Source: Sulfurospirillum tamanense (GTDB lineage Bacteria > Campylobacterota > Campylobacteria > Campylobacterales > Campylobacteraceae). Taken from it: 64,000 nt of DNA. Position numbers and translations under genes: made by a program. This document shows, piece by piece, positions 2,310 through 63,303 of the stretch. The stretch covers positions 1 to 64,000 of the forward strand of contig NZ_JAFHKK010000009.1 in assembly GCF_016937535.1 (NCBI RefSeq), in the 5' to 3' direction. Each line of letters starts with the position of its first letter. Position 1 is the first letter of the stretch. The notes beneath the pieces are model-generated. The model was not told the origin of the DNA. It ran no database searches and was given only the letters and a program-made list of their open reading frames with translations.

Positions 2310-3355
2310 TAAAACACCTCACCATACTCATCATTGGCCTTTTTGTACTCTTCTATCCGCCCGATGTCCAGCCAATACTCTCTAAGCGGAAACGAGATAG
2401 CATTTTTATTGTCACTTATAATCTTGTCAAAAAGCGTAGGCATGTCGTAAAATTTATTTTGCGGGATAAGTTCAAGCACTTCGGGTGAGAGCATGTATAT
2501 CCCAGCACTTACAAAAAACTTATGGGTGGGTTTTTCTTCTATTGAGAGTATTTTGCTGTTCTTTACATGCACAACCCCATAAGGTACTTGAAAGTCGTAT
2601 TCTCGCACACACATGGTTCCCGTGGCATTGTTTGCCAGATGGTAGTCGTGTAGGTGCTCAAAGTTTACGTTAGTCAGCAGATCTCCATTCATGACAAAAA
2701 ACGGTTCTGTTGGCTTTACATGTAAGAGACTCAACGCTCCTGCTGTGCCCATTCTTTGCTCTTCAAAAACATACTCTATGCTAACACCAAACTCGCCACC
2801 ATCTCCAAAATACTCTTGTATCACGTGTGATTTGTAGTTCACACACATCACGATGTTAGCATAGCCATACTCTGCAAATTTTTCTATGATGGTCTGGAGA
2901 ATCGGCTTGTTGCCCACTTTGAGCATGGGTTTTGGGGTGTTGTCTGTGAGCGGTCGCAAGCGCGTGCCAAGTCCTCCTACCATTAGTACAACTTTATTTG
3001 TTTTTTGCCTTGGCTTGATGAGTTCTTCTATTTCCTGAATACCAACTATCTTGCCATTTTCATCTACGATGGGTATCTGATGCAGTTTTTTGGCAAGTGC
3101 TATCTTCAAAATCTCTTCTTTGGTGTCGCTAATGGTGGCGATGGTCGGGGTCGTAAAGGTGATGCTCTCAATAGAACTATCCAGAGTAAGCCCTTTGAGC
3201 AGCCCCCGCCTTATATCTCCATCGGTCAAAGTGCCTATTAGCCTATCGTCATCGTCCACGATCAAGGCGATTTGCATAGCTGCTTTGTCTATAATCTCTA
3301 AAGCTTCTTTTATGGTTGCGTTTTTATTGATCTTTATATTGTCTATGTTTTTCAT
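2309..3355 (-). CDS. ptmE: CBS-domain sugar nucleotidyltransferase, PtmE-like
   Basis: A 348-residue two-part protein. Residues 1-115 form a pair of CBS domains (IVDDDDRLIGTLTDGDIRR, and IPIVDENGKIVGI). From about 124 a nucleotidyltransferase domain follows with VVLMVGGLGTRLRPLTDNTPKPML, a variant of the pyrophosphorylase signature, and NGDLLTNVNF for the metal aspartate. In Campylobacter jejuni PtmE is the glucosamine-1-phosphate guanylyltransferase that supplies GDP-linked sugar for legionaminic acid synthesis. The same domain order and the location in a leg operon support that role here. The gene overlaps the deacetylase gene by 4 bases. Confidence 0.8.
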   Translation of the reverse strand: MKNIDNIKINKNATIKEALEIIDKAAMQIALIVDDDDRLIGTLTDGDIRRGLLKGLTLDSSIESITFTTPTIATISDTKEEILKIALAKKLHQIPIVDENGKIVGIQEIEELIKPRQKTNKVVLMVGGLGTRLRPLTDNTPKPMLKVGNKPILQTIIEKFAEYGYANIVMCVNYKSHVIQEYFGDGGEFGVSIEYVFEEQRMGTAGALSLLHVKPTEPFFVMNGDLLTNVNFEHLHDYHLANNATGTMCVREYDFQVPYGVVHVKNSKILSIEEKPTHKFFVSAGIYMLSPEVLELIPQNKFYDMPTLFDKIISDNKNAISFPLREYWLDIGRIEEYKKANDEYGEVF

Positions 3356-4011
3356 TTCACCTCTTTCAAAAGAACAAAACTCTCAGCATATTCGCATCCA
3401 CATGTGGCGCCCCTAAAAGTTGCCAGCGCTCTTATGTTTCGTTCACTTCTTGGAAAGGGATGTTCGGCTATTTCGCTTTTAAAAACTTTCATAATCTCTA
3501 TCTTTTTTTCAAAAAAATCACTTATATCTACAAATACATTTGGCACGAAACCCTCTTCTTTAATGCTTGGCGCAAATTCTGTTTCGCTCAAAGTTTCCAT
3601 CATATAAATTTTTTTGATAAAAGGATAACGGAATGATTTTGTACAGCTATAACTCACTTCAAATATTTTTCTATGATCACTATGAACATCACCTTTAAAA
3701 GGAAGATAGATAGTATTTGGTTGCACCTCATTGATTACTTTAGAAATAGCACCAATAAGCTCACTCATAGAATATTCGTCAACTTGCATTGTTTTTAGAC
3801 GTAGATTATGCACACTATCAAAGCCATACATGGCACCGACAAAGCTTAGTTCTTTTTCTCTTTGTGTATAGTAATTGTGGTCTTTGCTTAGCGTCGTACA
3901 AATAAGCCAATGAATTTCATCCCCGCTTGCTTTATGTTTTAGCAAGGTTCCTCCGCATCCCAAAGTTTCATCATCTGGGTGAACAGCAACTATTAAGACT
4001 TTGTTATTCAT
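3352..4011 (-). CDS. PIG-L/LmbE family deacetylase
   Basis: A 219-residue member of the PIG-L family, zinc enzymes that remove N-acetyl groups from sugars. The signature AVHPDDETLGCGG is at residues 9-21 (His and two Asp as zinc and catalytic residues) and the second histidine motif HSDH is near residue 112. It overlaps the formyltransferase gene upstream by 4 bases and ptmE downstream by 4. The pair deacetylase plus formyltransferase inside a legionaminic acid operon suggests replacement of an N-acetyl group by N-formyl on a sugar intermediate or product. The substrate is inferred. Confidence 0.82.
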   Translation of the reverse strand: MNNKVLIVAVHPDDETLGCGGTLLKHKASGDEIHWLICTTLSKDHNYYTQREKELSFVGAMYGFDSVHNLRLKTMQVDEYSMSELIGAISKVINEVQPNTIYLPFKGDVHSDHRKIFEVSYSCTKSFRYPFIKKIYMMETLSETEFAPSIKEEGFVPNVFVDISDFFEKKIEIMKVFKSEIAEHPFPRSERNIRALATFRGATCGCEYAESFVLLKEVK

Positions 4012-4889
4012 AGATACTCCCCAACTTTTGGTAGTTCTTTAAAATCATGTTCAATAATTTTTATTGCTTTATCATAGGTTTTTACAATAATTGCCTTATT
4101 GCTATTTTCTAAAACTTTTCCAAATTCAATATTATCTTTATCAAATTCTATCTCCTCAACTTTCCAAACAGATACATCTTGTCCATTGTATTCAATATGT
4201 GCTCCAATATAAGGTTTTGTCAATGCACGAACAAGATTATAGATTGCATTTGATGTCATTCTAAAGTCAATTTTTCCGTCAGCTTTTCCTCTTTTTCTCC
4301 AAACATTAGCTTTGTCGTGATTTTGCCTCACCCTTTTAAAGCTATTTTTTTGAAGTTTTGGCAAAAAATCTTTTATTTGATTTAATGCTATATTTGAAAT
4401 TTTACTATACAAACTTTTCGCATCATCTTCATATGAGATTTCAAACTCTTCTTGAGATAAAATATCCCCATCGTCAGCGCCTTCTTGCATAAAAAAGAAA
4501 GTTGAAGCACTTTTTTTAAGCCCTAAAGCCAGAGCCCAAACAAGTGGATGCCTTCCTCTATTTTGTGGCAATGCGGCAGGATGATAGCCAACTACACCCA
4601 TAGGCGCTAAAGTCAACAACTCTTTTTTTATTAAACTTGACCAGCCAAAGCAAAAAATGATGTCAGGACTCAAGGTCTTAACCCACTCAATATTTTCTCT
4701 TGAATTAATATCATCTATACATTTATAAGGTATTTTATTTTCTTTGCACAGAGGCGTTAAGTCTGCAAAATCACTATTAAAGGTTGATTTTGCTTTTGCA
4801 CAAACTCCAACTACTTCTGCTTTTAATTCAATTAGCCTATTCAAAGCTTTATATGAAAGCTCAACCGTTCCTATGAATAAAATTTTCAC
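4008..4889 (-). CDS. Formyltransferase-family protein (sugar N-formyltransferase candidate)
   Basis: A 293-residue protein related to methionyl-tRNA formyltransferase, with the N10-formyl-THF binding Rossmann core at residues 1-180. The active site loop reads VVGYHPAALPQNRGRHP (about residues 104-120). It keeps the catalytic His but has Gly where classical enzymes have Asn in N-x-H. The catalytic Asp is in EGADDGDIL near 145. It is translationally coupled to a PIG-L deacetylase and to legG, so it probably acts on a sugar amine, not on initiator tRNA. The Asn change may mark a sugar-modifying subfamily or altered chemistry. Confidence 0.75.
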   Translation of the reverse strand: MKILFIGTVELSYKALNRLIELKAEVVGVCAKAKSTFNSDFADLTPLCKENKIPYKCIDDINSRENIEWVKTLSPDIIFCFGWSSLIKKELLTLAPMGVVGYHPAALPQNRGRHPLVWALALGLKKSASTFFFMQEGADDGDILSQEEFEISYEDDAKSLYSKISNIALNQIKDFLPKLQKNSFKRVRQNHDKANVWRKRGKADGKIDFRMTSNAIYNLVRALTKPYIGAHIEYNGQDVSVWKVEEIEFDKDNIEFGKVLENSNKAIIVKTYDKAIKIIEHDFKELPKVGEYL

Positions 4890-6052
4890 ACATTAACCTT
4901 TAAGTCATAAAAAGATTTTTTCAAAATATTTCCCAAATCTACAGTTTTTAAAACCTCAACTATTTTTTTACTAGCACATCCATCGCCATAAGGATTTTTA
5001 GTAGTTTTTAGAATTTCTTGAAATTCTTGTGAATATAGCTTCGCAAAAGCTTGTTGGATTGAGCTTTTATTTGGCCCACAGTCAATTACACTGGCAGCCT
5101 TTATGCGACCTTTTTGCCTATCCCCTATGTTTATTGTTCCAATTTTAAAACTAGGAGTTTCGGCTAGTCCACTAGAGCTATTGCCCACTACAGCATCTAC
5201 AAGTTGTAAAGCACTTAGGTATTTTAGCTGCCCTAAAGAGGTAAATCCTACTGATTTATCAGAATTTTTTGCTACATACTCATCTATCATTTGGTTTATA
5301 ATCCTGCCGTCGGTGTCGCTATTTGCTTTTGTAAAAATGGTGTTTGTGTCTTGCAACTCATCAATAGCATCGAGCAACTCTTGAAATTGGTCTTTGGCGG
5401 TTGCATTTTCCAAAGTCACAGGATGAAAAGTGACTAGGATATTTTTTTTATTAAGTTTAAAATCAATAGACTTTTCAAACTCTTTGCATGTAAGAAGATT
5501 TAATCTTTTGATATTCTCAATCCCCATACCGCCTACATTAAACACTCTGCTCGGATGTTCTCCAAGCTGAATAACTCTATTTCTGTACTCTTCTGTTGCC
5601 ACAAAATGCAAATGGCTCATTTTGGTGATGCTATGGCGAATTGGCTCATCGATTAATCCCTCAGTGGCTTCGCCACCGTGCAGATGGGCTATGGGAACGC
5701 GCGCTATCATCGCAGCGCTTGCGGCGCTAAAGATTTCGTATCTATCTCCCAAGACAACAACCACGTCAGGCCTTAGCTCTTCGTAGGCTTCCGCAAAAGA
5801 TATTTGAGCCAATCCCATTGACTTTGAAATGCCAATAGGCGTGTCAGAAGACAAAAGCATCTCAATTTTTTTGCTACATGTAAACTCTTTTTCTATTTCT
5901 TTATACGTTAAACCAAACTCAGGGCTTAGATGCATCCCTGTGGCTATGATTTGAAGCTCCAATTCACGGTCAGATTCTATCTCCCTCATAAGCCAATAGA
6001 GCAACCCGTATTCCGCTCTAGTACCTGTAACTACACAAATTTTTCGTTTCAT
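4886..6052 (-). CDS. legG: UDP/GDP-sugar 2-epimerase, hydrolysing (LegG/NeuC)
   Basis: A 388-residue GT-B fold enzyme that hydrolyses the nucleotide from the diacetylated bacillosamine precursor while inverting C2. Family signs are the start KICVVTGTRAEYGLL (residues 3-17), LHGGEATEGLIDEPIRH near 120-136 with catalytic acids and histidine, VTFHPVT near 220 and NSSSGLAETPSF near 300. Length fits NeuC/LegG. It lies between legI upstream and the formyltransferase downstream, with 4-base overlaps on both sides, as expected for consecutive steps of one pathway. Confidence 0.87.
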   Translation of the reverse strand: MKRKICVVTGTRAEYGLLYWLMREIESDRELELQIIATGMHLSPEFGLTYKEIEKEFTCSKKIEMLLSSDTPIGISKSMGLAQISFAEAYEELRPDVVVVLGDRYEIFSAASAAMIARVPIAHLHGGEATEGLIDEPIRHSITKMSHLHFVATEEYRNRVIQLGEHPSRVFNVGGMGIENIKRLNLLTCKEFEKSIDFKLNKKNILVTFHPVTLENATAKDQFQELLDAIDELQDTNTIFTKANSDTDGRIINQMIDEYVAKNSDKSVGFTSLGQLKYLSALQLVDAVVGNSSSGLAETPSFKIGTINIGDRQKGRIKAASVIDCGPNKSSIQQAFAKLYSQEFQEILKTTKNPYGDGCASKKIVEVLKTVDLGNILKKSFYDLKVNV

Positions 6053-7047
6053 ATCAACTCATCTTCTTTATAATCTTTGAGCGCAACAGTTCCCATAATC
6101 TCATCCCATCGCATAGGACTTATACCATTTCCTGGGCGCTTGATGGTGATATTTCCTTCGCTTAAGATGTCGCCTTTTTTGATGGCTTTTTTTGCCACTA
6201 TACTTTTTCTAACTATTGCCTTGTTTGGCATTTCACTTTTGCTAGGTTTTTTTATGCTACTTCCTAGTGCTAGCTCTATATTGCGGATGGCTTTCACCAT
6301 GGCCTTTAGCTCATCTGGTTCTAGGCTCGCTTTGTGGTCTGGGCCTTCCATCGTTTTATCAAGTGTGAAGTGTTTTTCTATGCAGCTCGCCCCCAATGCC
6401 ACTGCCGCTATATCCACCTCTATGCCTAGAGTATGGTCACTGTAGCCGTACGCCACATCAAAAGTAGTACCGATAGTCACCATAGCTTTTAAGTTGACAT
6501 CTTCCATGGGAGTGGGGTACTGCGTGTTGGCATGAAGTACGGTGATGTTTTCTTTTTTCGTGCCAGCACTTGTGAGGATGTCTAGCGCATCTTCTATCTC
6601 TCCCATGTCCGCCATACCAGATGAAAGGATGACTTTTTTGCCCAGTTTTCCTAGGTATTTTAGATAGGGAAGATTAGTAATCTCACCACTTGGGATTTTA
6701 AATATATCAAGACCCAAGTCGCTCAAAAGCTCTATGCTGTCATGGTCAAAAGGGGTGGAAAGAAACATGATGTTTTTTTCCTTGCAGTATGCTATGAGTT
6801 CTTTGTGAATATCAACATTAAGCTCAAGCTTTTTGAGCATGTCGTATTGGGACTCATTTTTACTTGTCGTGTCTTTTTGGTACTCCGCTTTTTGCGCATT
6901 TTTGGACGCAAGCTTATCGGCCTTAAAGGTTTGAAATTTCACCGCATCCGCCCCAGCTTCTGCTGCTACATCGATGAGCTTTTTGGCAAGCTCTAAACTT
7001 CCATTGTGGTTTACCCCCGCTTCGGCTATGATGAAAACTTTTCTCAT
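6049..7047 (-). CDS. legI: N,N'-diacetyllegionaminate synthase (LegI/NeuB)
   Basis: A 332-residue synthase that condenses phosphoenolpyruvate with the free diamino-sugar to form legionaminic acid. The TIM-barrel domain starts with IIAEAGVNHNGSLELAKKL (residues 6-24) and contains DAVKFQTF, KIPSGEITN and the YSDHT loop. The C-terminal SAF (antifreeze-like) domain covers about residues 275-332, including KRPGNGISP. Both domains are complete and length is typical. It overlaps legG and legH by 4 bases each. Choice of legionaminic over sialic acid rests on the neighbouring legB and legC. Confidence 0.88.
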   Translation of the reverse strand: MRKVFIIAEAGVNHNGSLELAKKLIDVAAEAGADAVKFQTFKADKLASKNAQKAEYQKDTTSKNESQYDMLKKLELNVDIHKELIAYCKEKNIMFLSTPFDHDSIELLSDLGLDIFKIPSGEITNLPYLKYLGKLGKKVILSSGMADMGEIEDALDILTSAGTKKENITVLHANTQYPTPMEDVNLKAMVTIGTTFDVAYGYSDHTLGIEVDIAAVALGASCIEKHFTLDKTMEGPDHKASLEPDELKAMVKAIRNIELALGSSIKKPSKSEMPNKAIVRKSIVAKKAIKKGDILSEGNITIKRPGNGISPMRWDEIMGTVALKDYKEDELI

Positions 7048-7649
7048 TTTACTATACTCCCCGCTTTGATAAAACCATCTATAGTGACATACTCTTTACA
7101 TGTAGCGTTGCTTCCGTAGAAAGTATTTGCCTTTACATGTACACCACCGTTGATGATAGCGCCTGTGCTGATGTGGCAGTGTTCTTCTATGTGCACATCG
7201 TGCTCTACGAGGGCTTTTGAATTGATGATACAGTTTTTACCCACACTTGCGCTGGCGTTGACTAGCGCGTGGTGCATCACTACTGTTCCTTCTTCTAGTT
7301 TGGCGTGTTTAGATACATACGCCAAGGGTGAAATAATAACAGGGAGTGTAAAACCAACCTCTTTGGCAAGATTAAACAACCTAACGCGCAAAGCGTTTGA
7401 TGTGATGTGACCTACAGTGATGAGCGCATAGTTGCATGTAGAAACAAACTGTTTTAAGTCATCATCGCAGCCTATGACATCATAGCCCAATACTTTCTTG
7501 CCGATGTTTTCTTTGGTGTCTATGATGCCTAAGATGGTGTAAATGTTTTGTTGCTCGATGACATCGACAACTGACTTGCAGTGCCCCCCGCCGCCGATTA
7601 AGATAATGTTTAATTTTGAATTTTGAATTTTGAATTCTTTGTTATTCAT
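7044..7649 (-). CDS. legH: Sugar N-acetyltransferase (LegH/NeuD/PglD family) with a repeat-derived N-terminus
   Basis: A 201-residue left-handed beta-helix acetyltransferase. The N-terminal sugar-binding Rossmann part begins only at IILIGGGGHCKSVVD (residues 15-29), and hexapeptide repeats follow from about residue 90 (HALVNASASVGKNCIINSKALVEHD). Homologues normally start directly at the GGGGH strand. Here about 14 extra residues precede it, and these are translated from three copies of a seven-base repeat (7611-7636). It presumably acetylates the C4 amine made by LegC. It overlaps the four-helix-bundle gene by 8 bases, so that gene now feeds into it. Confidence 0.82.
   Translation of the reverse strand: MNNKEFKIQNSKLNIILIGGGGHCKSVVDVIEQQNIYTILGIIDTKENIGKKVLGYDVIGCDDDLKQFVSTCNYALITVGHITSNALRVRLFNLAKEVGFTLPVIISPLAYVSKHAKLEEGTVVMHHALVNASASVGKNCIINSKALVEHDVHIEEHCHISTGAIINGGVHVKANTFYGSNATCKEYVTIDGFIKAGSIVK
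7605..7638. repeat. Seven-base tandem repeat (AATTTTG)n, left flank of the four-helix-bundle gene
   Basis: Reading the plus strand, AATTTTG is repeated three times from 7612 and continues as AATTCTT. On the coding strand the unit is CAAAATT and encodes EFKIQNSKLN at the LegH N-terminus. The outer 17 bases, 7605-7621 (AATGTTTAATTTTGAAT), recur exactly in inverted orientation at 8022-8038 on the other side of the four-helix-bundle gene. Confidence 0.85.
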
Positions 7650-8007
7650 TTGTCGGCCTTGATGATTTTACTATGCTTGTTAGAAGTTTGATAATTTCTT
7701 CAATATCTAAAACCAATGATGCCACATGATTGTCGTTAGTATTTAAATAATCGGTTTTGGCCAGTAAGTCTATCCAGTATTTTGTCTCTCTTGCTTCTTT
7801 ACTTGCTATGCTCATCTTTGATATAAAGTCAGCTTTACTTTGTCCTGCTTGGGCTTCGTTTATATTTGCTCCTATTGATGTACCACTTCTTAGAAGTTGC
7901 TTTGACAAGACATATTCTTTTTTTTCATCACAAAGGTACTTGTAAAGTTTTACAATCCTTACAGCAAAAGCAAATGATTTATCTAAAATGATATTCTCCT
8001 GCTTCAT
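7642..8007 (-). CDS. Four-helix-bundle protein (23S rRNA intervening-sequence protein family)
   Basis: A 121-residue, mostly helical protein. The stretches LSKQLLRSGTSIGANINEAQ (residues 38-57) and FISKMSIASKEARETKYWI (61-79) are the typical core of the family first found in 23S rRNA intervening sequences and related to Avd of diversity-generating retroelements. The start ATG overlaps the stop of the truncated rhuM, and its end overlaps the legH start by 8 bases. It is bracketed by inverted 17-base repeats within seven-base repeat tracts. The biochemical role of the free-standing family is not known to me; nucleic-acid binding is assumed for Avd-like members. Confidence 0.85.
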   Translation of the reverse strand: MKQENIILDKSFAFAVRIVKLYKYLCDEKKEYVLSKQLLRSGTSIGANINEAQAGQSKADFISKMSIASKEARETKYWIDLLAKTDYLNTNDNHVASLVLDIEEIIKLLTSIVKSSRPTNE

Positions 8008-8375
8008 GCCGCTTTACCATCATTCAAAATTAAACATTTAAAATTCAACATCGAATCAGTTGCCCACTGGCGAAACCTGGTAGCTTTATGAGAACTTACC
8101 CTGTAGCCCACACTTATAATGGCGTCTAAATTATAGTGCTTGATAGTTCTTTTTACTTTTCTAGCACCCTCTTGGCGAACTACCGAGAAATCCTCGGTAG
8201 TTACAATTTCGTCCAATTCTTGCTCTTTATATATATTTTTTAAGTGCAAACTGACATTATCAGTGCTTGTTTCAAAAAGTTCTGATATTTGAATTTGACT
8301 CAACCAAACAGTATCGCTTTGAATGGAGATTTCAAGCTCAATTTCACCGTCGTTGTATTTAACTAAATCACTCAT
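8004..8375 (-). pseudogene. RhuM-family protein, C-terminally truncated
   Basis: The 123 residues cover only the N-terminal part of RhuM-type proteins, which are normally about 300-350 residues. Recognisable family blocks are DTVWLSQIQISELFETSTDN (residues 21-40), LHLKNIYKEQELDE (44-57), YNLDAIISVGYRVSSHKATR (about 81-100) and FRQWAT. After residue 107 the sequence changes to MLNFKCLILNDGKAA, which is translated from the right-hand heptad repeat, then stops. It overlaps legC by 4 bases upstream and the four-helix-bundle gene downstream. RhuM genes are common in mobile and toxin-associated islands; function is unknown. Confidence 0.75.
8022..8050. repeat. Inverted heptad-like repeat, right flank of the four-helix-bundle gene
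   Basis: Bases 8022-8038 are the exact reverse complement of 7605-7621. The next bases (TTAAAATTCAAC) continue the degenerate seven-base pattern. The tract lies inside the last codons of the truncated rhuM and supplies its new C-terminus and stop region. Confidence 0.8.
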
Positions 8376-9517
8376 ACTGGAAGCCTCACGCTACTTGGGA
8401 TATTCACAACCCGCTCTTCAAGATATTTTGCATTTTTTAGCTCTGTGCATTGACAATTTTCAAACATAACCAGCTCATTCATGAGTTTCCAAATGGGGCG
8501 GGTCATCACGCCTTGGTCGTTGGTGAATTGTAAAAAAGCATCACGCTGTGCCTTGTCCTTTAAAATCACCGCATTAAGCCAGTAGTTTGACTGGCTATCT
8601 TTTGGCTCTTTGACAAATTGCGCATCTTTACATGTAAGAAAAAACTCCTCGTAAGCTAGCGCTAAATTTCTCTTGTTTTCCAAAAATGCCTCTAATTGCT
8701 CAAGTTGTGCTACCAACAGCGCAGCATTGAGGTTTGGCATGCGGTAGTTGTAGCCCGACTCATCATGAACGAACTCCCATCGGTGCGGGAGCTTAGCTGT
8801 CGTGGTGAGGTGTTTGGCTTTTTTTGCTAAAACTTCATCATCAGTGACGATGACGCCGCCGCCGCCGCTAGTGATGATTTTATTGCCGTTAAAAGAAAAG
8901 GTGCCAAGCTGTCCAAAGGTTCCTGTATGTTTGTTTTTATAATAGCTTCCTAAGCTTTCAGCGGCATCTTCAACAAGAGAAATCTTCCATGTATCACAAA
9001 TTTCTTTGATGGCGTCTATCCGACACGGATGCCCAAAGGTGTGCATGGGAACGCACGCCTTGGTGGTTTTTCCAGTGGCTTTGTTGATGCATTGATTGTT
9101 CTTTAATGTGCAGTTTTCTTTCAAAAATTTATCGAGCGATTCGGGACTCATGCCAAGGGTATCCATGTCCACATCTACAAAGACAGGGCTCGCTCCGCAG
9201 TACGCTATGGCGTTACATGTAGCGATAAAACTGAGTGGTTGCGTGATGACTTCATCACCTTTCTCTACACCCGACAAGAGCAAGCTTGCATGTAAAGCCG
9301 CTGTGCCATTTACTGTCGCCACGGCATACTTGCTGCCCACGTAAGAGGCAAATTCTTTTTCAAACCGCTCCACATACGCCCCAACGCTTGAAACAAAGGT
9401 GGAGTCGATGCAATCATTCAGGTATTGCTTTTCGTTACCCATAAAACGTGGTTCGTGCAAAGGGATGAAATTATTGGTGCTAAATGCGTGCTTGATAAAC
9501 TCAACAATGCGCAGCAT
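8372..9517 (-). CDS. legC: PLP-dependent aminotransferase LegC
   Basis: A 381-residue member of the DegT/DnrJ/EryC1/StrS family that transaminates C4 of the 4-keto sugar made by LegB. Visible features are the PLP-binding GTAALHASLLL near residue 72, the conserved EDAAES near 180 and the Schiff-base lysine in FSFNGNKIITSGGGG (about residues 202-216). The LegC subgroup character is supported by the start IPLHEPRFMGNEKQYL. The genes on both sides overlap or abut. It follows legB directly, so the two enzymes are made together. The gene contains two TACATGTA palindromes. Confidence 0.88.
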   Translation of the reverse strand: MLRIVEFIKHAFSTNNFIPLHEPRFMGNEKQYLNDCIDSTFVSSVGAYVERFEKEFASYVGSKYAVATVNGTAALHASLLLSGVEKGDEVITQPLSFIATCNAIAYCGASPVFVDVDMDTLGMSPESLDKFLKENCTLKNNQCINKATGKTTKACVPMHTFGHPCRIDAIKEICDTWKISLVEDAAESLGSYYKNKHTGTFGQLGTFSFNGNKIITSGGGGVIVTDDEVLAKKAKHLTTTAKLPHRWEFVHDESGYNYRMPNLNAALLVAQLEQLEAFLENKRNLALAYEEFFLTCKDAQFVKEPKDSQSNYWLNAVILKDKAQRDAFLQFTNDQGVMTRPIWKLMNELVMFENCQCTELKNAKYLEERVVNIPSSVRLPV

Positions 9518-12452: not shown

Positions 12453-12455
12453 TTA

Positions 12456-26673: not shown

Positions 26674-28670
26674 TCCTTACATGTAAAGGCTTCAAGCGCC
26701 TCAATATGCCTTACATGTAAGGCTTTTCTCTCCTCTAAAAAGGCTATTTTTTCGGCTTTTATCTTGGAAAATTGGCGCATGAGCCAGTCGTAATTTTTGT
26801 TCAAAAAAGTGTTGCGCGAATGCATCATATTTTCTAACTCATACAGATGAAAGCTGGTACGTAGGCGTGTTTTGATTTCCTCCAATTTGGGTTGATAAAG
26901 AGGAAACTGGCTTGGATTTTCTTCGTAGAGTTTAATGGACTCACTGATTTTGCGCTCCAAAAATCCCACACTCACTTCCGTCGCGTTTTGGTAGTTAAAA
27001 CTCACCGCCGAACTTAAGTGGTTAAATTGGGAGGAGATTTGTGCATAAGAACCTCGAATCTCATCGTTAAAAGGCTTTAAAAAAGTCTCGTACGCCTTGG
27101 AAGCAAAACGGCGCAACGCAGCAAAAGCATCCTTGCTGTGCAAGGCATCTTGGGGAGTTTTGGCTTCATAGATTTTTTGCCACCCTTGCACGGCACGCTC
27201 AAATTCTTTGTAAATCAGGCTGTTTTCTTGGTTTACTACATCTTGAATCACGCGCAGGTTTTTCACGTATTGTTTGAACATCTTGCCAATCAAATCTTCA
27301 TCGTAAAACAACACCTTGTACACTCGGTCTGCATGAATCTTCGCCACACGGTATTCGTGGGGAATGTACGTTGTTTTGCCTTTCAAAAGCCCCGCTTTTT
27401 GGGCTCCATAACGCACGCGAGTTTCGCTGTCGATGTGCGTAAAAATCTCCGATGCAATCTTGTCGATGATGTTTTCGATTTTTACAAACGCCAAACCAAG
27501 CTCTTTACCAAAGCGCGCTTTCAAAGCTTCAAAGGTTTGTTGTGCCTTAGCTTCAAAGGTTTCCAAGATGTCCTCAAGAGCCTCATGGGCCGCCATGATT
27601 TCACGGTGTTGGGCGAGGATGCGCCCGCGCAAAGAAGTGAGCTCTTTTTGAATCGCGTACACTTTAGCATCTTGGGCTTGCGGGCGAATCTCTTGGGAGA
27701 TAAACCCTAACACCGCTTCGATATTGGAATCTTGCAACAAAGAAGCGTTACTTGCACTGTCTGAAGCGGCAATGCGCGCAACCCTTTGCAAATACCCCTC
27801 AATCTGCGCCTCTAGCGCCTCTTTTTGCGGAAGAAACTGGGCTTGTTTACATGTAAGCTCCAGCCCCTCAAGCAAATCCTCAAGGGTTGCCTCAAGTTGT
27901 GCTTCATGGCTGTGAGAACGCGCTTCAAGGGCTTGTTTGGCGGAAATCGCTACCACTTCGCCAAAGTATTCGCCTAAGGCTTCTTTGACATAAGCCGTAG
28001 TTTTTTGGATGTTTTCTTCGGAAAATTTATCTTTTTGGTTGAGCACGCACAAGGATTTTGACGCGTAGGCGTCCATGTACTGTTCCAACACTTCCACTTC
28101 ACTCAGCTTCCCTGCATTGTCCATCAAGGTGAGCCAAATGATGCCATCGACCTCCCTAAGTACCGCTTGGGTGGTTTCAGTGTCGCTGTGGGCTTGGGAA
28201 TTTAGCCCTGGCGTGTCCACGAAAACCACTTCTTTCAAAAGCTCCAAAGGGGCATACAGGGTGAGGTATTTGGTTTGCTCTACGCTTTCACGCTGGTCTG
28301 TAAAACTGGCGATATTTTCAACCCCATAAAACGCTTCGCGTCCATCATAATAATGCACTTGAAGCTTAAACTCCTCCCCGTAGCGGATGTAGTTGACCTT
28401 GGATGTGACTGGCGTTACGCCAGTAGGGAGGATGTTTTTGGAAAGAAGGGCGTTTAAAAAGGTAGATTTTCCGCTGGAAAACTGCCCCGTAATCGCCACT
28501 TTCATAGGCTCTTCCACACGGCGCACAAGAGCATCAAGTGCCTCTTTCAAAGGGGATTCTTCGTGCATCAACGTTTGCCTAAAGGCTTCGATGGCTCCAA
28601 GCAAAGGGTGGGTAAAGGTTTTGGGCGGGTAATAAGCTTTGATAAAGGCGTCAAAAAGTGGGTGTCTCAT
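26670..28670 (-). CDS. Dynamin-like GTPase, second of a pair
   Basis: A 666-residue bacterial dynamin-family protein. G1 is [18 protein letters not shown] (59-76), the switch I threonine lies in [13 protein letters not shown] (about 80-92), G3 is DTPGLNSQ near 150 and G4 is NQKDKF near 210. Long helical stalk segments fill the C-terminal 400 residues. Campylobacter jejuni has two such adjacent proteins (Cj0411/Cj0412, DLP1/DLP2) that act together as a heterotetramer tethering membranes. Same order and 4-base overlap are seen here. Three TTACATGTAA palindromes lie in the gene, two near its 3' end. Confidence 0.85.
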
Positions 28671-53777: not shown

Positions 53778-53895
53778 ACTCTGTCCTTTGGTTTGATACA
53801 ATGCGCCATTTGCAACACGGTTGCACGTTAGGCCTTTACAAGTAAAGCGCAAAAATGAAAAAGTATTAGTCTAGCACACAGGGAGTTAATAAAAG

Positions 53896-54459
53896 ATGAA
53901 TATTGAGATTTCCGAAGTTGCCAATCTCCCCTCACGTTTTGGCACCTTTAAAATTCAAACCTTCAAAGAAGGCCCTAAAGAACATCTTGTCATTTTCAAA
54001 GAACCTTTAAGCGCTGAACCCGTGGTGCGCATTCACAGCGAATGCCTCACAGGAGATGCCATTGGGAGTTTAAAATGCGATTGCCGGGACCAACTTGAAG
54101 CTTCGTTAGCATGCATTGAAAAAGAAGGAGGGATGGTCATTTACCTGCGTCAAGAAGGGCGCAACATCGGCCTTTTAAACAAGGTCAACGCCTACGCCCT
54201 CCAAGACAAGGGATTTGACACGGTAGAGGCTAACCACCAACTGGGCTTTGAGGCGGATGAGCGCACCTACGAAGTGGTGGAAACCATCCTAAAACACTTT
54301 AACATCACAGCCATTCAACTGCTCACCAACAACCCTAAAAAGCTTCAAGGGCTGAAAAATATCACCATCACCAAGCGCCTACCCATCATCATCCTCTCCA
54401 ACCCCCACAACAAGGGCTATTTGAAGGTCAAACAAGAACAGATGGGCCACTTGCTTTAG
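53896..54459 (+). CDS. ribA: GTP cyclohydrolase II
   Basis: A 187-residue single-domain enzyme that starts riboflavin synthesis from GTP. Zinc ligands are the three Cys in HSECLTGDAIGSLKCDCRDQ (about 49-68); YLRQEGRNIGL near 87 and LTNNPKKLQGL near 142 complete the active site. It is the stand-alone form, not fused to RibB. GGGAG precedes the ATG by about nine bases. It ends convergently with the universal stress protein gene, overlapping by 4 bases. Confidence 0.93.
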   Translation: MNIEISEVANLPSRFGTFKIQTFKEGPKEHLVIFKEPLSAEPVVRIHSECLTGDAIGSLKCDCRDQLEASLACIEKEGGMVIYLRQEGRNIGLLNKVNAYALQDKGFDTVEANHQLGFEADERTYEVVETILKHFNITAIQLLTNNPKKLQGLKNITITKRLPIIILSNPHNKGYLKVKQEQMGHLL

Positions 54460-56809: not shown

Positions 56810-56849
56810 AACTCCCCTTTACATGTAATAAAAAAAAGGGGGATTATAC

Positions 56850-58256
56850 TTAATTATTGCTTAATTTAAGGTTATCTTCCAGATTCCACCCGCCGCCTAG
56901 GGCTTTGATGAGAGAAATGTCGCCGCTTAGGACGGCTTGTTGCGCTTGCACAACGCCCAGTTGCGCTTCGAGTAAACTGCGTGTCGCATCCAGCACACTG
57001 AGGTAGTCTGAGACTCCTTTTTCATAGCGCAGTGTACTTAGTTCCAACAGACGCGCCTGAATGGTCTCTTGGGTTTTGAGGTACTCTCTGGAAGCCGCAA
57101 GACTTTGGCGCGCACTTAGTGCTTCGTGTACTTCGTTAAACGCACGGTACACGCTTTGCTCATAGGCCAAGCGGGCCAACTCTTGCGCCGCCTTTGCTTG
57201 CTCAACACCCGCTGCAACACGCCCAAAATCAAACAAAGGCGCTACCAAAGAACCCCCAAGACTCCATGTGTTGGCCGAAGAGCGCACCAAGTTGCCAAGG
57301 GCCGCACTCTCGTATCCCAAAGCACCCGAGAGGCTAATGGAAGGAAAATGGGCGGCTTTTGCCACGTGGATGTCGGCATTGGAGGCCCGCAAGGCATACA
57401 GTGCCGCTTGGATGTCAGGGCGCTGTTCTAAAAGCGAGGAAGGAAGCCCCTCAGGCACCGTGATAGAGTCTGGCAAACTCGCGCGCTCCAACACAACCTC
57501 TTCGCCAAAAAGCTTGTCTGGCGCAGTACCCAGCAGTACATGTAAAGCACTTTTTTGGCGCACAAGCGCGTTTTCAATACTCTCCAAAGTAGATTTTGCT
57601 TGGGTTACTAGCGCCTCATTAGCAAGCACTTCATACTCTGAAACCACGCCATAGCGTAGCTTTTTACGCATGATATCCAAGGCCTCTTCACGCAAAGCCA
57701 CCGTACGCGCAGCAATCTCTTTTTGTTCATTAAGTGCCACTACTGCAAAATAACTGTCCACTACCGACGCCACAAGCCCCAACCGTACCGCATCTTGGCT
57801 TGCTTTAGAAGCCAAAAGAGACTGGGTTGCGGAACGGTCGGCCATTTTAAGCTTTCCCCATAGGTCTAATTCGTAACCAAGAACGGCACTTAACGCATAC
57901 GCATTCCCCCTTGCTTGCGGTGCACCTGAGGCTGTTTCGCCACTGGTTTGCTGACGACCCGCTGAGGCTGTGCCGCTGAGGCTTGGATAACGTTGCGCCT
58001 GAGCACCACTAAGGTAAGCGCTCGCTAGCGCCACATTTGCAGCAGCTGTTTGTAAATCGTGATTGTAAAGGAGGGCTTCTTCCACAAGCCCATTAAGCCG
58101 CACATCCCCATAAGCCTCCCACCACTGCGATGAAACAGATTCTTTTTCTTCCCCTTGGACTGTCGCAACAGCCAAAGGCACAGGACCTGAAAGCTGGGCG
58201 CAACCGCTTAAAAAAAGAAGGGTTGTTGCCCCTATTAAAAAACTATGCCACTTCAT
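56850..58256 (-). CDS. cmeC: Outer-membrane efflux lipoprotein (CmeC/OprM type)
   Basis: From the ATG at 58256 (AAAGGAGACAAAC upstream) it has 468 residues. The signal peptide ends with lipobox LSGC at about residues 16-19. Two TolC-type repeats follow, with SSQWWEAYGDVRLNGLVEEA near 41, GYELDLWGKLKMADRSA near 130 and APLFDFGRVAAGVEQAKAA near 335. It forms the outer channel of the RND pump whose two other genes precede it; its start overlaps the pump gene by 14 bases. Lgt encoded at 36.8 kb would lipidate it. Confidence 0.9.
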   Translation of the reverse strand: MKWHSFLIGATTLLFLSGCAQLSGPVPLAVATVQGEEKESVSSQWWEAYGDVRLNGLVEEALLYNHDLQTAAANVALASAYLSGAQAQRYPSLSGTASAGRQQTSGETASGAPQARGNAYALSAVLGYELDLWGKLKMADRSATQSLLASKASQDAVRLGLVASVVDSYFAVVALNEQKEIAARTVALREEALDIMRKKLRYGVVSEYEVLANEALVTQAKSTLESIENALVRQKSALHVLLGTAPDKLFGEEVVLERASLPDSITVPEGLPSSLLEQRPDIQAALYALRASNADIHVAKAAHFPSISLSGALGYESAALGNLVRSSANTWSLGGSLVAPLFDFGRVAAGVEQAKAAQELARLAYEQSVYRAFNEVHEALSARQSLAASREYLKTQETIQARLLELSTLRYEKGVSDYLSVLDATRSLLEAQLGVVQAQQAVLSGDISLIKALGGGWNLEDNLKLSNN

Positions 58257-61200
58257 GTTTGTCTCCTTTTTTTGCGGTAAATCGCTCATTAAGTTTTGCC
58301 AACCAGCTGTAAAAGAGCGGGATAAAGAAAAGAGCGACCGTCGTTGCCAAAATCATCCCGCCAATGACCCCTGTTCCGATGGCATGGCGACTCGCCGCGC
58401 CTGCGCCCGTACTTATGGCCAACGGCACAACTCCAATAGTAAAGGCCAAAGAGGTCATGACAATGGGTCTAAAGCGTAGTTTTGCAGCCTCTAGGGTCGC
58501 CTCGTAAATACTTTTTCCTTTTTCTTGAGCCTGCATCGCAAACTCTACAATCAAAATGGCATTTTTAGCCGAAAGGCCCATCAAGACCAAAAGACCAATC
58601 TGGAAATAAATGTCGTTATCTAGCCCACGAAGATACACTGCAGCAATCGCCCCAAGCACGGCAAAAGGGACCGAACTTACGACCGCTAAAGGCATGAGCC
58701 AGCGCTCATACTGCGCCGCTAAAATCAAAAAGATAAACACGGCACCAAACAAAAAGGCCAATGAACCTGTGCCTTCCATCTCTTTTTCTTGGTACGATGT
58801 CCCAATCCATCCCACCGTGTAACCCTCCGGCAAAACCTCTTTGGTCACTGCTTCAATGGCATGTAACGCGTCCCCCGAAGTAAACCCAGGTGCAGGGTCG
58901 CCCATCATTTTAGCCGCAGGAAAGGCGTTAAACCGCTCGACCACATCTGGCCCAATAATACGCTCATAACTTACAAGAGCGCCCAATGGGATGAGCTCGC
59001 CTCCAGAGGCGCGCACAAAGACATTGGATAAATCTTCTGGGCTTTCACGGTACGAAGCCTCCGATTGAAGGTTGACTTTATAGGTACGTCCAAAAAGATT
59101 GAAATCATTCACATAATACGCGCCAAACGTGGCCTGCAACGCGGCGTACACATCGCCAATTGCCACGCCAAGGGCCTTCGCCTTTTGGCGGTCCAATTCA
59201 ATGTGATACTGAGGCACTGAAATATCAAACGTCGTACGTACCTGCTGAAGTTCAGGGCGTTGATTAGCTTTAGCTGCAACCGCTTGGGCGATGTCACTGA
59301 GCTCTTTCAAAGAAGCACCCGTTCGGTCTTGAATATACATTTCAAAACCACCACCCAAGCTTAGCCCATTAATAGGAGGAGGATTAAGGGCAAAGTTGAT
59401 AGCATCGGGGATTTGGCTCATTTGCCCATTAAGTTGTCCGCTGATAGCACTTGAAGACTGGTGTGCTAAAGGGCGCTTTGACCAATCTTGGAGATTAATA
59501 AAGGTGGTCGCCGCACTGGTTTTGGGTGTGCCACTTAAAATATCGAATCCTGCAATAGAAATAGCGTATTGGATATTTTCATTGCTTACAGCAATTTTAG
59601 AAATTTCGTCGCGCACAGCTTCGGTTCGATTTAAAGAAGCAGCTGGAGGCAAAGAGGTAACCGCTAGTAAAAACCCCTTGTCTTCCATGGGCACAAGTCC
59701 TGTGGGAACTTTTGTGAACAAATGGTACATCGTCCCCATAAGTGCAGCGATAATCACAAGACTGATGATGCCATGACGCACCACCCAACCCACGCCACCC
59801 GTAAACCAACGGGTAGAAGCATCAAAAAGTTGGTTAAATTTTCTAATAAACCAAAAAGGTTTAGGTTGGTCTTTTTTCAAAAAGACCGCGCACAGTGCGG
59901 GTGTGAGTGTGAGTGCCACCATGCCTGAAATAATTACCGAAATAACAATCGTCACCGCAAACTGTTGGTACATCTGTCCCGTAAATCCACCCATGAAAGC
60001 AACAGGTGTAAACACGGCACTAAGCACCAACACAATCGCAACCAATGGCCCTGTGATTTCTTGCATGGCTTGAACTGTTGCCTCCTTGACACTCAGTTCA
60101 GGATGGGCGTGCAAAATCCGCTCCACGTTTTCGATGACAATAATCGCATCATCCACCACGATACCAATAGCTAACACGAGGCCAAAGAGGGTCAAAAGGT
60201 TGATGGAAAAACCGAGCATATACATGCCCGCAAACGCCCCAATAATGGAAACAGGAATGGCTAAAATAGGGATAATGGTTGCACGAATATTTCCTAAAAA
60301 CAGATAGACGATACCCACAACAAGCACCAAAGCTTCTAGAAAAGTAATGATGACTTCTTGGACAGATATTTCCACAAATTTGGTCGTGTCGTAAGGAACA
60401 ACATAAGTCATTTGTTCAGGGAAGTTTTGAGAAATGCGCTCCATTGCTGCATCCACAAGCTTGGCGGTTTCAAGCGCATTGGCTCCTGATTGGAGATAAA
60501 TACCAATAGGCACCATGGGCTGTCCATTGAGCGTAGAGCTTACATCATAAGACTCAGATCCTAATTCAATGCGAGCAATGTCGCTAAGGAGGAGCGACGA
60601 ACCATCGCTGTTGGTGCGAATAATAATGCTACCAAATCCCGCAGCATCATCAAAACGCCCTTGGGTTGAGACAGTATAGGTAAAAGCTTCTTTGCCTGCG
60701 ATTGGCATCTGATTGAACCTGCCTGCGGCAAATTGGGCGTTTTGCTCCCTAATGGCCCCAATAACATCTGAAGGCGTTAGGTTAAATTGGGAGAGTTTGT
60801 CAGGTTGCATCCAAATACGCATAGAATAATCTTGGACACCAAAAAAGGAAGCATCCCCCACCCCTTTGACGCGCTTAAGCTCGTCAATCACGTTAATCAA
60901 AGCGTAGTTTGCCATAGTCACCGTGTCAAAGGCTTCATCTTCCGCCAAAATAGCGATGACCTTTAAAATGGCTGAAGAGCGCTTGCGAACGGTTACACCA
61001 CGGTTTTGCACCTCTGCTGGCAACGAAGAGAGGGCTGCTTGGACGCGGTTATTGACATTGATGGTTGCTTGGTCGGCGTCAGTACCAATCTCAAAATAGA
61101 CATTGAGGTTCATTTGCCCGCTAGAAGAAGCGGTGGAGGTCATGTAAATCATGTCTTCCACCCCATTAATTTGCTGTTCAATCTGCGCTGCCACCGTTTT

Positions 61201-61377
61201 GGCAATCGTTTCAGCGTTTGCACCCGCATACGTCGCGCTCACAGTCACTTGGGGTGGAACCACCTCGGGGTACTCTTCCACCGGCAAAATCCGCATGGAC
61301 ATGAGTCCAGCGATGATTACCACAATGGAAAGCACCGTCGCAAAAATAGGCCGATTGATAAAAAATTTGGAAAACAT
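58243..61377 (-). CDS. cmeB: RND multidrug efflux permease (CmeB/AcrB type)
   Basis: A 1044-residue inner-membrane transporter of the HAE1 group. It starts MFSKFFINRPIFATVLSIVV, and the proton-relay aspartates are in LVLAIGIVVDDAIIVIENVE near 400. The two large periplasmic loops and twelve helices fit by length, and GLSAKNAILIVEFA near 938 marks the second half. It takes drugs, bile or detergents from periplasm or membrane and passes them to the outer channel. The gene begins 9 bases after the adaptor stop. No TTACATGTAA occurs in this 5.7 kb operon beyond one core in cmeC. Confidence 0.93.
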   Translation of the reverse strand: MFSKFFINRPIFATVLSIVVIIAGLMSMRILPVEEYPEVVPPQVTVSATYAGANAETIAKTVAAQIEQQINGVEDMIYMTSTASSSGQMNLNVYFEIGTDADQATINVNNRVQAALSSLPAEVQNRGVTVRKRSSAILKVIAILAEDEAFDTVTMANYALINVIDELKRVKGVGDASFFGVQDYSMRIWMQPDKLSQFNLTPSDVIGAIREQNAQFAAGRFNQMPIAGKEAFTYTVSTQGRFDDAAGFGSIIIRTNSDGSSLLLSDIARIELGSESYDVSSTLNGQPMVPIGIYLQSGANALETAKLVDAAMERISQNFPEQMTYVVPYDTTKFVEISVQEVIITFLEALVLVVGIVYLFLGNIRATIIPILAIPVSIIGAFAGMYMLGFSINLLTLFGLVLAIGIVVDDAIIVIENVERILHAHPELSVKEATVQAMQEITGPLVAIVLVLSAVFTPVAFMGGFTGQMYQQFAVTIVISVIISGMVALTLTPALCAVFLKKDQPKPFWFIRKFNQLFDASTRWFTGGVGWVVRHGIISLVIIAALMGTMYHLFTKVPTGLVPMEDKGFLLAVTSLPPAASLNRTEAVRDEISKIAVSNENIQYAISIAGFDILSGTPKTSAATTFINLQDWSKRPLAHQSSSAISGQLNGQMSQIPDAINFALNPPPINGLSLGGGFEMYIQDRTGASLKELSDIAQAVAAKANQRPELQQVRTTFDISVPQYHIELDRQKAKALGVAIGDVYAALQATFGAYYVNDFNLFGRTYKVNLQSEASYRESPEDLSNVFVRASGGELIPLGALVSYERIIGPDVVERFNAFPAAKMMGDPAPGFTSGDALHAIEAVTKEVLPEGYTVGWIGTSYQEKEMEGTGSLAFLFGAVFIFLILAAQYERWLMPLAVVSSVPFAVLGAIAAVYLRGLDNDIYFQIGLLVLMGLSAKNAILIVEFAMQAQEKGKSIYEATLEAAKLRFRPIVMTSLAFTIGVVPLAISTGAGAASRHAIGTGVIGGMILATTVALFFIPLFYSWLAKLNERFTAKKGDKHEVA

Positions 61378-61386
61378 GCCAGACCC

Positions 61387-62481
61387 TTACGGATTTTCAA
61401 CGCGCACAGGGGCGTTGGGACGAAGCTTGGTAAGGCTATTGAGGATAAGCTCTTCACCGCCTTTAAGGCCTGATTGGATGATAAACATCCCTTCCCTAGG
61501 CTCATCAATCACAACGGGTACTTTTTGAACCTTTCCCTCTTGATGCACATACACAAACGAGCCAGTAGCATCTTGCATAAGCGCACTTTGAGGAATGGCT
61601 ATGCTGTTGCGCGCCACCAAACCCTCCAAACGAACCCGTGTAAACAATCCTGGCATTAAGATGTTCTCAGGGTTTTCAAAGGTAGCACGGGCCTGGATGG
61701 TGGAAGTTGCAGGATTAATAGTGGCATCCATATAGGTAATTTCGCCTTTATTTTCAAGGGGGTTTCCCCCCATTAAAAGACGCACATCAGCACCCTTAAA
61801 CGCCTCTTTATGCTTTAAAATATCACGATCTGGCAAAGAAAAAGCCACATGAACAGGATCTACTTGCGTAATGCTTACAAGCTTGGTGCTTGAAGAGGTG
61901 ATGTAGTTCCCCTCATCTAGCAAAGCTAGGCCTGCTACTCCTGAACTAGGAGCGTAAATCTTGGTATACTCTAAATCAATTTTGGCAAGGTCGCGGGTCG
62001 CCTTAGCTGCTTCAAAAGAAGCCTTTGCTGCGTCGTAGGTTTTAAGCGCATTGTCGTACACTTGCTGGCTTAACGCGTTCGCCTCGTACAACGCTTGCGT
62101 GCGCTCCCAGTCCCGCTTTGCTGCTTTAAGAGCCGCTTCTTGAACACCCAAAGAAGCCACGGCCTGATTGTAAGTGGCTTGGTATTTGGCAGGATCGATT
62201 TCGTAAAGCAAATCACCTTTTTGCACCACTTGGCCTTCTTTAAAATGTTTTGCCATAAGCTGGCCTGGCACCCTAGCTACAACGTCTACGTATTGAACAC
62301 TGTGAACTTTGGCGGGGTATTCGTAGCTTAGAGGAATATCCGCAGGCTGAACAACAAGGGTTTTTACTACAGGTGCGGGTCTAGCAGGTGGCGTTGCTTG
62401 GCTGGTCTCTTCCCCTAAACACCCTGTTAAAAAGAGCACTAGCGCTACGCTACACACACTTTGTATTAGCCGATTTTGCAT
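61387..62481 (-). CDS. cmeA: Periplasmic adaptor lipoprotein of the RND pump (CmeA/AcrA type)
   Basis: A 364-residue membrane-fusion protein. The lipobox is LTGC after a short signal peptide (residues 1-21). The lipoyl-like part has VVARVPGQLMAKHFKEGQVV (about 67-86), followed by a helical hairpin at 100-160, a beta-barrel (DPVHVAFSLPDRDILKHKEA near 206) and a C-terminal membrane-proximal domain. It links CmeB and CmeC. It is the first gene of the operon, with a consensus promoter and a CmeR-like operator just upstream. Confidence 0.92.
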   Translation of the reverse strand: MQNRLIQSVCSVALVLFLTGCLGEETSQATPPARPAPVVKTLVVQPADIPLSYEYPAKVHSVQYVDVVARVPGQLMAKHFKEGQVVQKGDLLYEIDPAKYQATYNQAVASLGVQEAALKAAKRDWERTQALYEANALSQQVYDNALKTYDAAKASFEAAKATRDLAKIDLEYTKIYAPSSGVAGLALLDEGNYITSSSTKLVSITQVDPVHVAFSLPDRDILKHKEAFKGADVRLLMGGNPLENKGEITYMDATINPATSTIQARATFENPENILMPGLFTRVRLEGLVARNSIAIPQSALMQDATGSFVYVHQEGKVQKVPVVIDEPREGMFIIQSGLKGGEELILNSLTKLRPNAPVRVENP

Positions 62482-62496
62482 TGTTATCTCCGATTT

Positions 62497-62512
62497 TGTA
62501 ATTTTTATTACA
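62497..62512. promoter_or_regulatory. CmeR-type operator
   Basis: TGTAATTTTTATTACA is an inverted repeat with six-base arms. It differs only in the centre from TGTAATAAATATTACA, the CmeR site of Campylobacter jejuni cmeABC. It lies between the cmeA promoter and start codon, where bound repressor would block transcription. Confidence 0.8.
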
Positions 62513-62526
62513 TTAAAAAGCCAGCG

Positions 62527-62555
62527 ATTATACTCTGGTATTTTTAATATGTCAA
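62527..62555 (-). promoter_or_regulatory. Consensus promoter of the efflux operon
   Basis: On the minus strand TTGACA and TATAAT are separated by exactly 17 bases, both perfect. This is unusually good for Campylobacterota, whose promoters mostly lack a -35. The -10 ends about 46 bases before the cmeA start, with the operator between. Confidence 0.85.
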
Positions 62556-62560
62556 CCTTA

Positions 62561-63214
62561 CTAGAGCCCCTTGCAGAAAATCCCCACCAATTGGGTCAAA
62601 GCGCGTGCTTTTGCTTCGGGCGAAATGTCAATCTCTACCCCCAAAACCCGCCGAAATAAAAAGGGGTCTTTAAGGGCGTGCAAAAATTGGTGGCTTGCTA
62701 AATTGGTATCTTGGACACGAATCTTACCTTGCGCCTTGGCCGCATCAAGGCGCAAGGTAATCAATGTTGCGATTTTGTCGCCAGCATGGTCTAAAAACAA
62801 TTTGCCAAGCTTTCCATTGTCACGATGTCCTTCGCTAATAATCAAACGGTGAAACAACACCGCATCTTGCGTGCTCACTAAGTCTAAAAATTCACTACCA
62901 ACAGCCATCAAAAAGCCGCTTAAGTCCTCTTCTCCCAAGGCTATTTTTTGTTCTATCCCTTCAAAAATGAGCGCCATTTTGTATTCAAGCACCGCAGCAA
63001 AAAGCCCCTCTTTGTTTCCAAAAATCTTATACACTGTTGAGAGCGAGCCACCTGAGCGTTGGATGATTTGATTCATACCCGCTTTTTCAAAACCCTCTTC
63101 CAAAAAAACCTCTCCGGCGGCTTCTAAGAGTTTCTTGTATCGGACCATGCCTTTGGGCGTTAGACTGGTTGATGTTTCCATGGGTGTTTCTCCTCTTGTT
63201 GCATGTTCTGCCAT
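62561..63214 (-). CDS. cmeR: TetR-family repressor of the efflux operon (CmeR-like)
   Basis: A 217-residue regulator from the ATG at 63214 (GGGGAG eight bases upstream); ATG at 63181, with GAGGAG upstream, is equally possible and gives 206 residues. The DNA-binding domain includes LLEAAGEVFLEEGFEKAGMN and IIQRSGGSLSTVYKIFGNKE, the recognition helix. The C-terminal ligand domain is variable, as normal. It precedes cmeABC on the same strand, as in Campylobacter, and the operator between them fits CmeR. It would release the promoter on binding bile salts or drugs. Confidence 0.87.
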   Translation of the reverse strand: MAEHATRGETPMETSTSLTPKGMVRYKKLLEAAGEVFLEEGFEKAGMNQIIQRSGGSLSTVYKIFGNKEGLFAAVLEYKMALIFEGIEQKIALGEEDLSGFLMAVGSEFLDLVSTQDAVLFHRLIISEGHRDNGKLGKLFLDHAGDKIATLITLRLDAAKAQGKIRVQDTNLASHQFLHALKDPFLFRRVLGVEIDISPEAKARALTQLVGIFCKGL

Positions 63215-63303
63215 TTTACTCACTCCCCCCTTGAATTACAAGTAAAGTTCGCTTTTACTGTAGATTTGCTACAATCATTTGACGTTACATGTAAAGGTTT
63301 TTC

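Follow-up and report, generated by a model that had tools for sequence, protein, structure and literature searches.

A highly iterated palindrome in the Campylobacterales and its very probable link to a solitary D12 adenine methyltransferase

Highly iterated palindromes (HIPs) are known from cyanobacteria, in which HIP1 (GCGATCGC) and the alternate HIPs of other lineages match the methyltransferase of the lineage that holds them (PMC4390886). A mismatch-repair model has been proposed for HIP1 (PMC4390886); its function and cause have been open since 1995. Motif methylation also governs DNA import in Campylobacter jejuni, which imports only DNA methylated as RA(m6)ATTY (PMC10046745; PMC8627207; PMC8437040). 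The window analyzed here is a stretch of 64,000 nucleotides deposited as Sulfurospirillum tamanense (contig NZ_JAFHKK010000009.1, which is contig C9 of genome G000, 2.46 Mb). It harbors many copies of a ten-base palindrome, TTACATGTAA, built on the eight-base core TACATGTA. This palindrome is iterated throughout the genome, is maintained site by site between species, and is very probably linked to a solitary D12 adenine methyltransferase.

The window contains 36 copies of TACATGTA and 22 of TTACATGTAA, the same counts as in a preliminary description of the sequence. That description had expected one or two cores and fewer than one decamer. The excess is upheld, and the real expectations are lower still (0.51 and 0.08); none of 100 shuffles reached the decamer count. 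Across the whole of G000 there are 1059 copies of TTACATGTAA against one of the reversed control, and 1480 copies of TACATGTA against 27. In 462 kb of this genome TTACATGTAA occurs 194 times against 0.65 expected, and at lengths of 6, 8 and 10 bases no palindrome is more over-represented. The palindrome excess is confirmed as real and genome-wide. A count near expectation or a restriction to this locus, either of which would have undone the initial proposal, was not observed. G000 thus has the gross genome-wide excess of a palindrome that characterizes a HIP.

The anatomy of the palindrome was determined from 476 kb of G000. The TACATGTA core is all-or-none; each single-base core variant is at background, with 0-5 copies. 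Preferences are graded at the outer T/A pair and at the two bases beyond it, which gives an extended consensus of approximately C-Y-TTACATGTAA-R-G. The Sulfurospirillum palindrome is similar, with an invariant core and variable outer bases. In both, as in HIPs, near-matches differ from the palindrome chiefly in the outer bases, and the graded excess of one-mismatch forms that marks a DNA uptake sequence is absent from the core. Sites are found within genes in 145 of 200 cases (72%), where they are read as LHVx or xTCx, consistent with the initial observation that most copies lie in coding sequence. The remaining 55 are intergenic, in 7% of the sequence, and are therefore about 5-fold denser per base.

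This intergenic enrichment is what would be expected of an ordinary dispersed regulatory operator or repeat. However, most sites are inside genes, the gene-internal sites have no bias toward gene starts, and no repeat unit longer than ~14 bp surrounds them. The gene-internal positions and the lack of a longer unit rule out an operator or repeat, in agreement with the preliminary description, which had argued against an ordinary operator. A restriction-site effect is contradicted by the fact that active restriction leads to avoidance of a site, not to an excess (PMC4687349). Explanations of this kind retain next to no probability.

The spacing of sites fits an exponential distribution (Kolmogorov-Smirnov p = 0.72), and the window has three gaps longer than 5 kb against 2.4 expected. 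The long motif-free stretches, which had been singled out as noteworthy, are due to chance and carry no signal because the spacing is random. Close pairs 21-36 bp apart are slightly above chance (7 against ~2.8 expected for 15-50 bp); they are located at 26677-26720 in the window and at 4327, 47802, 67300 and 153923 of G000:C1.

The distribution of the palindrome was surveyed in 200 genomes of the order Campylobacterales, G000 included, and a genome with at least 500 copies of TACATGTA was considered rich. Eight genomes are rich: five in the family of G000 (G000, G001, G012, G051 and G066) and three Sulfurospirillum genomes (G138, G168 and G180). A fourth Sulfurospirillum genome, G192, holds just 49 decamers. 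In genus g10 several genomes are weakly enriched, with 55-250 cores against 9-33 for the control. All eight rich genomes encode a D12 adenine methyltransferase (PF02086; MNYIGSK...DPPY), referred to here as class (i). Class (i) carriers number 45 of the 200 genomes and include every rich genome (hypergeometric 4e-6, an overstatement, as the rich genomes make up only ~4 independent genera). The G000 enzyme has 322 amino acids and is encoded outside the window (G000:C40:8025-8993), beside genes for an SDR protein, a small membrane protein and an MFS transporter. No endonuclease gene adjoins the methyltransferase in the rich genomes examined, and the rich genomes lack any ICEA (PF05315) gene. The solitary methyltransferase for which the preliminary description had proposed a search is found, and it is an orphan D12 adenine enzyme, as in systems of the type of CtsM, the RAATTY methyltransferase of C. 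jejuni. Searches of NCBIfam and PDB sequences with the enzyme yielded no match. PF01555-type methyltransferases were also considered as the cause and were rejected; their distribution differs from that of the palindrome. A link between the palindrome and the class (i) enzyme is very probable.

The relatives of this enzyme point to its target. Close relatives elsewhere adjoin ICEA in 22 of ~107 loci. ICEA is a CATG endonuclease family (PMC10423294); iceA1 is a CATG endonuclease with M.HpyI as its CATG methyltransferase (PMC10423294; PMC2749054), and is 52% identical to NlaIII (PMC2749054). Phage relatives of the methyltransferase are annotated as 'ulcer associated adenine specific DNA methyltransferase'. 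Around class (i) loci no 4-base palindrome is more depleted than CATG, which falls to as few as 2 copies against 88 expected. From the ICEA linkage and this depletion, the target is inferred to be CATG. In G000, CATG is not avoided (2382 against 2516 in 462 kb) and a cognate endonuclease is missing, so this is not a CATG restriction-modification system; the enzyme is a member of the iceA-associated M.HpyI/NlaIII group but lacks an endonuclease partner in G000. The palindrome-linked orphans are spread over three or more positions in the methyltransferase tree. At two of these positions the stems are long, with 2.05 and 0.92 changes per column, which would fit enzymes that changed once the endonuclease partner was lost.

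Three further observations concern class (i) loci. A recurrent protein of 299 amino acids adjoins the methyltransferase in 45 of the ~107 loci (L099 and 44 others, mostly from Bacteroidota). It has no Pfam or NCBIfam match and is likely an undescribed family of CATG restriction endonucleases. The S. diekertiae plasmid NZ_CP059996.1 (39,868 bp; G138:C2, L082) encodes a further class (i) methyltransferase; TTACATGTAA occurs there once in 20 kb, whereas the G138 chromosome has ~8 copies per 20 kb. In G168, a Cas9-like protein of 1053 amino acids, encoded with cas genes (L074 5469-8630), adjoins the cheY-methyltransferase locus.

Comparison of orthologous positions, which had been suggested as a check, reveals that individual sites are maintained. 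G138 and G180 are 77% identical overall and only 43% identical at four-fold sites, near saturation. Nevertheless, 83 of 95 G138 palindromes are identical in G180, versus 11.8% for any 10-mer, and sites are kept in both coding (63/71) and non-coding (22/24) sequence. Identity is 0.94-0.98 across exactly 10 bp and ~0.7 just outside on both sides. In the reverse direction, G138 has an identical copy at 83 of the 114 sites of G180; therefore, site gain or loss also occurs. Between G000 and G001, 7 of 8 sites are kept. This conservation is a site-by-site footprint, beyond any compositional habit.

The sister genome G192 shows what follows when the enzyme is absent. G192 groups with G138 (689 informative positions versus 534 and 434; identity 82% versus 78%), so its ancestor had the system. 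The syntenic locus, flanked by a 362-amino-acid gene and a small gene on one side and by cheY on the other, lacks the methyltransferase gene in G192. Of 24 sites common to G138 and G180, G192 has lost 22, and its sequence matches no better within the ten bases than in the flanks. No other observation points as strongly to a dependence of site upkeep on the methyltransferase, or on something lost with it.

Based on these results, TTACATGTAA may be regarded as a highly iterated palindrome around the CATG target of the solitary D12 adenine methyltransferase, which presumably methylates it. The methylated palindromes would serve as a mark of 'self' that is read through methylation. The likeliest use would resemble that of CtsM and RAATTY: DNA with the methylated motif would be preferentially taken up and recombined, and the resulting biased recombination would restore mutated sites and spread new ones. 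Once the methyltransferase is lost, the sites would decay. A methylation-dependent mark of self-DNA, upheld by uptake and recombination, is assigned a probability of about 0.5. By analogy with CtsM, uptake as the function of the palindrome has roughly even odds.

Several observations weigh against this mechanism. G019 (99% complete) contains 246 cores with no methyltransferase detected, which may reflect a remnant or an assembly gap. The loss in G192 represents a single event in a small tree. An enzyme specific for plain CATG would methylate ~12,000 further CATG sites as well; the longer palindrome must therefore be read by something. All 12 genomes tested encode ComEC, with or without the palindrome, and its presence so permits uptake but gives it no support. 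Classical uptake sequences are asymmetric and have a graded excess of mismatched forms (PMC1939737). The sharp core seen here is unlike them, and the reader must therefore be strict if uptake is the force. No documentation of natural transformation was found for the host genus or, in the literature searchable, for Sulfurospirillum. Finally, many class (i) carriers lack the palindrome. The same fact is consistent with an incidental methyltransferase, with another putative protein recognizing TTACATGTAA and the two sharing lineages by chance, as is a flanking consensus that reaches beyond CATG. However, such coincidence would have to account for co-occurrence in ~4 independent genera, for CATG at the center of several different enriched palindromes in carriers, and for site decay in the genome that cleanly lacks the gene. 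An incidental enzyme is therefore improbable.

The main rival to a self-DNA mark is a site for internal genome maintenance: the methylated palindrome would act in replication, segregation, nucleoid organization or site-specific repair, its copies kept by purifying selection or template-directed repair with no role for uptake. Such a role fits the retention of sites at orthologous positions even though neutral divergence is near saturation, and the lack of graded core near-matches suits a strict binding protein or enzyme. Yet the random spacing provides neither even coverage nor clustering, save for the few close pairs, the loss of sites along with the methyltransferase in G192 shows that they are dispensable, and no reader protein was found. 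A maintenance role is thus unlikely, although it deserves more weight than an incidental enzyme. Of the causes left open in the preliminary description, a methylation target gained support from the methyltransferase in all eight rich genomes, and an uptake or self mark that is read through methylation is the one favored; a nucleoid or repair protein has no positive evidence in its favor but keeps some probability.

Alternatively, the sites could be a by-product of the ratchet proposed by Elhai, in which methyl-directed mismatch repair (MutS/MutL with a methyl-dependent nickase) skews mutation in favor of the palindrome. The anatomy is indeed HIP1-like, with a probable methyltransferase site inside the palindrome and deviations only at the outer bases. 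The required repair proteins are missing, however: no MutL scored over the cut-off in 12 of 12 genomes, including all rich genomes (the control matched 14/14), and no MutS1 did so in the eight genomes tested. G000, G001 and G012 have MutS2-type matches only, and Sulfurospirillum has a divergent MutS both with and without the palindrome. This divergent MutS (985-988 amino acids, ~290 bits to MutS1) occurs in the MutL-less genomes G138, G168, G180, G192 and G154. The ratchet is highly improbable here. The published account by mismatch repair cannot hold for all such systems, since here an independent HIP-like system exists in a different phylum and lacks MutL.

Other class (i) carriers are enriched in different palindromes with a CATG core. 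The Sulfurospirillum relative G154 (loci L077, L086, L087, L205-L207 and L282-L286) contains 22 copies of TATCATGATA against 1.0 expected in 220 kb. It is also enriched in TACCGGTA (11 against 1.7), perhaps a second iterated palindrome. A Campylobacterales bin has 7 copies of TTCATGAA against 0.4 expected, and a Sulfurimonas bin 23 of ACATGT against 4.4. Another Sulfurospirillum bin has TTACATGTAA itself (7 against 0.1). Viral contigs with CTTTACATGTAAAG have mostly single copies and are uninformative. Since the flavor of the palindrome does not track the methyltransferase tree, a putative reader, and not CATG specificity, probably determines the outer bases.

Campylobacter genomes encode a second methyltransferase, class (ii), of ~363 amino acids and 26-31% identical to class (i). 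Its length and near-universal presence suggest that it is probably CtsM (Cj0208), the RAATTY enzyme. At this identity, and with an enriched CATG core, the G000 enzyme is neither a CtsM ortholog nor, in all likelihood, directed to RAATTY. An instance of RAATTY, TAAATTTA, is mostly 3-8 fold more frequent than its reverse in Campylobacter genera g3-g6 (the enriched sequences comprise genomes among G003-G119 and loci L161 and L287), only 1-2 times as frequent in g2, and mostly at ~1 in other families; G126 and G189 are exceptions, so that the signal is not fully specific. TAAATTTA may be a palindrome based on the CtsM site. In C. portucalensis it occurs 46 times against 5 expected in 21 kb.

Together these patterns suggest a tentative general scheme for the Campylobacterales. 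Restriction methyltransferases may have been repeatedly domesticated as orphans, and each lineage may have built a palindromic barcode (TTACATGTAA, TATCATGATA, TTCATGAA or TAAATTTA) that is read through methylation at uptake, kept by recombination drive and erased on enzyme loss. HIP1 may be of the same kind. Such a scheme would connect HIPs with orphan methyltransferases and with methylation-gated DNA uptake. The system offers cultivable hosts (Sulfurospirillum), a candidate enzyme, an enzyme-less sister genome and the CtsM precedent in the same order; what keeps highly iterated palindromes becomes directly testable. The sites in the window are listed in Table 1.

Table 1. Palindrome sites and a tmRNA gene in the window
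Feature	Start	End	Strand	Remark
TTACATGTAA site	2716	2725	none	
TACATGTA core only	5875	5882	none	
TACATGTA core only	7097	7104	none	
TACATGTA core only	7134	7141	none	
TTACATGTAA site	8628	8637	none	
TACATGTA core only	9214	9221	none	
TTACATGTAA site	9851	9860	none	
TTACATGTAA site	13514	13523	none	
TACATGTA core only	14355	14362	none	
TACATGTA core only	14742	14749	none	
TTACATGTAA site	14993	15002	none	
TACATGTA core only	16487	16494	none	
TACATGTA core only	17534	17541	none	
TTACATGTAA site	17684	17693	none	
TTACATGTAA site	18481	18490	none	intergenic
TACATGTA core only	18854	18861	none	
TACATGTA core only	19570	19577	none	
TTACATGTAA site	21302	21311	none	
TTACATGTAA site	25251	25260	none	
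TTACATGTAA site	26677	26686	none	first of close pair
TTACATGTAA site	26711	26720	none	second of close pair
TTACATGTAA site	27847	27856	none	
TACATGTA core only	30617	30624	none	
TTACATGTAA site	30987	30996	none	intergenic
TTACATGTAA site	37665	37674	none	intergenic
TTACATGTAA site	39891	39900	none	
TTACATGTAA site	43697	43706	none	intergenic
TTACATGTAA site	46134	46143	none	intergenic
TACATGTA core only	49436	49443	none	
TTACATGTAA site	50096	50105	none	
TTACATGTAA site	51265	51274	none	
TTACATGTAA site	52793	52802	none	intergenic
TACATGTA core only	54855	54862	none	
TTACATGTAA site	56819	56828	none	intergenic
TACATGTA core only	57537	57544	none	
TTACATGTAA site	63285	63294	none	intergenic
tmRNA gene	23254	23622	minus	tag ANNTNYAPAYAKAA

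Literature on the decamer concerned only unrelated sequences, and no earlier description of a palindrome of this kind from Campylobacterota was found, in a search that most subscription papers lay outside. Among described systems, the iceA1-hpyIM and NlaIII systems have a methyltransferase of the same family as that of G000. They differ in that an endonuclease is absent here and the palindrome is over-represented, not under-represented. The DNA uptake sequence (DUS) of Neisseria and the uptake signal sequence (USS) of Pasteurellaceae are similar in density (~1 copy per 2 kb), in their location in genes with intergenic enrichment, and in being thought to be maintained by drive. Unlike the palindrome, DUS and USS are non-palindromic, have graded near-matches (PMC1939737) and have no link to a methyltransferase. 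CtsM/RAATTY is similar in having a partnerless D12-type enzyme (class (ii), the probable CtsM) in the same order and an enriched Campylobacter palindrome, TAAATTTA, within the RAATTY target. The G000 system differs from it in its probable CATG target, in a longer and rarer palindrome (~1000 versus ~27,000 sites) and in an uptake role that is proposed by analogy. As the preliminary description had recognized, the palindrome resembles HIP1: a thousand-copy palindrome, probably with the target of a methyltransferase inside it, near-matches that deviate at the outer bases, and different palindromes in different lineages. In contrast to HIP1, the palindrome is AT-rich with a CATG core, its enzyme is a D12 adenine methyltransferase of iceA/M.HpyI descent, core one-offs are not in excess, MutL is lacking, and an enzyme-less sister genome shows the decay of sites. 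Relative to the HIP kind, what is new is the phylum, the different enzyme class, and direct evidence of site upkeep and of site loss along with the enzyme.

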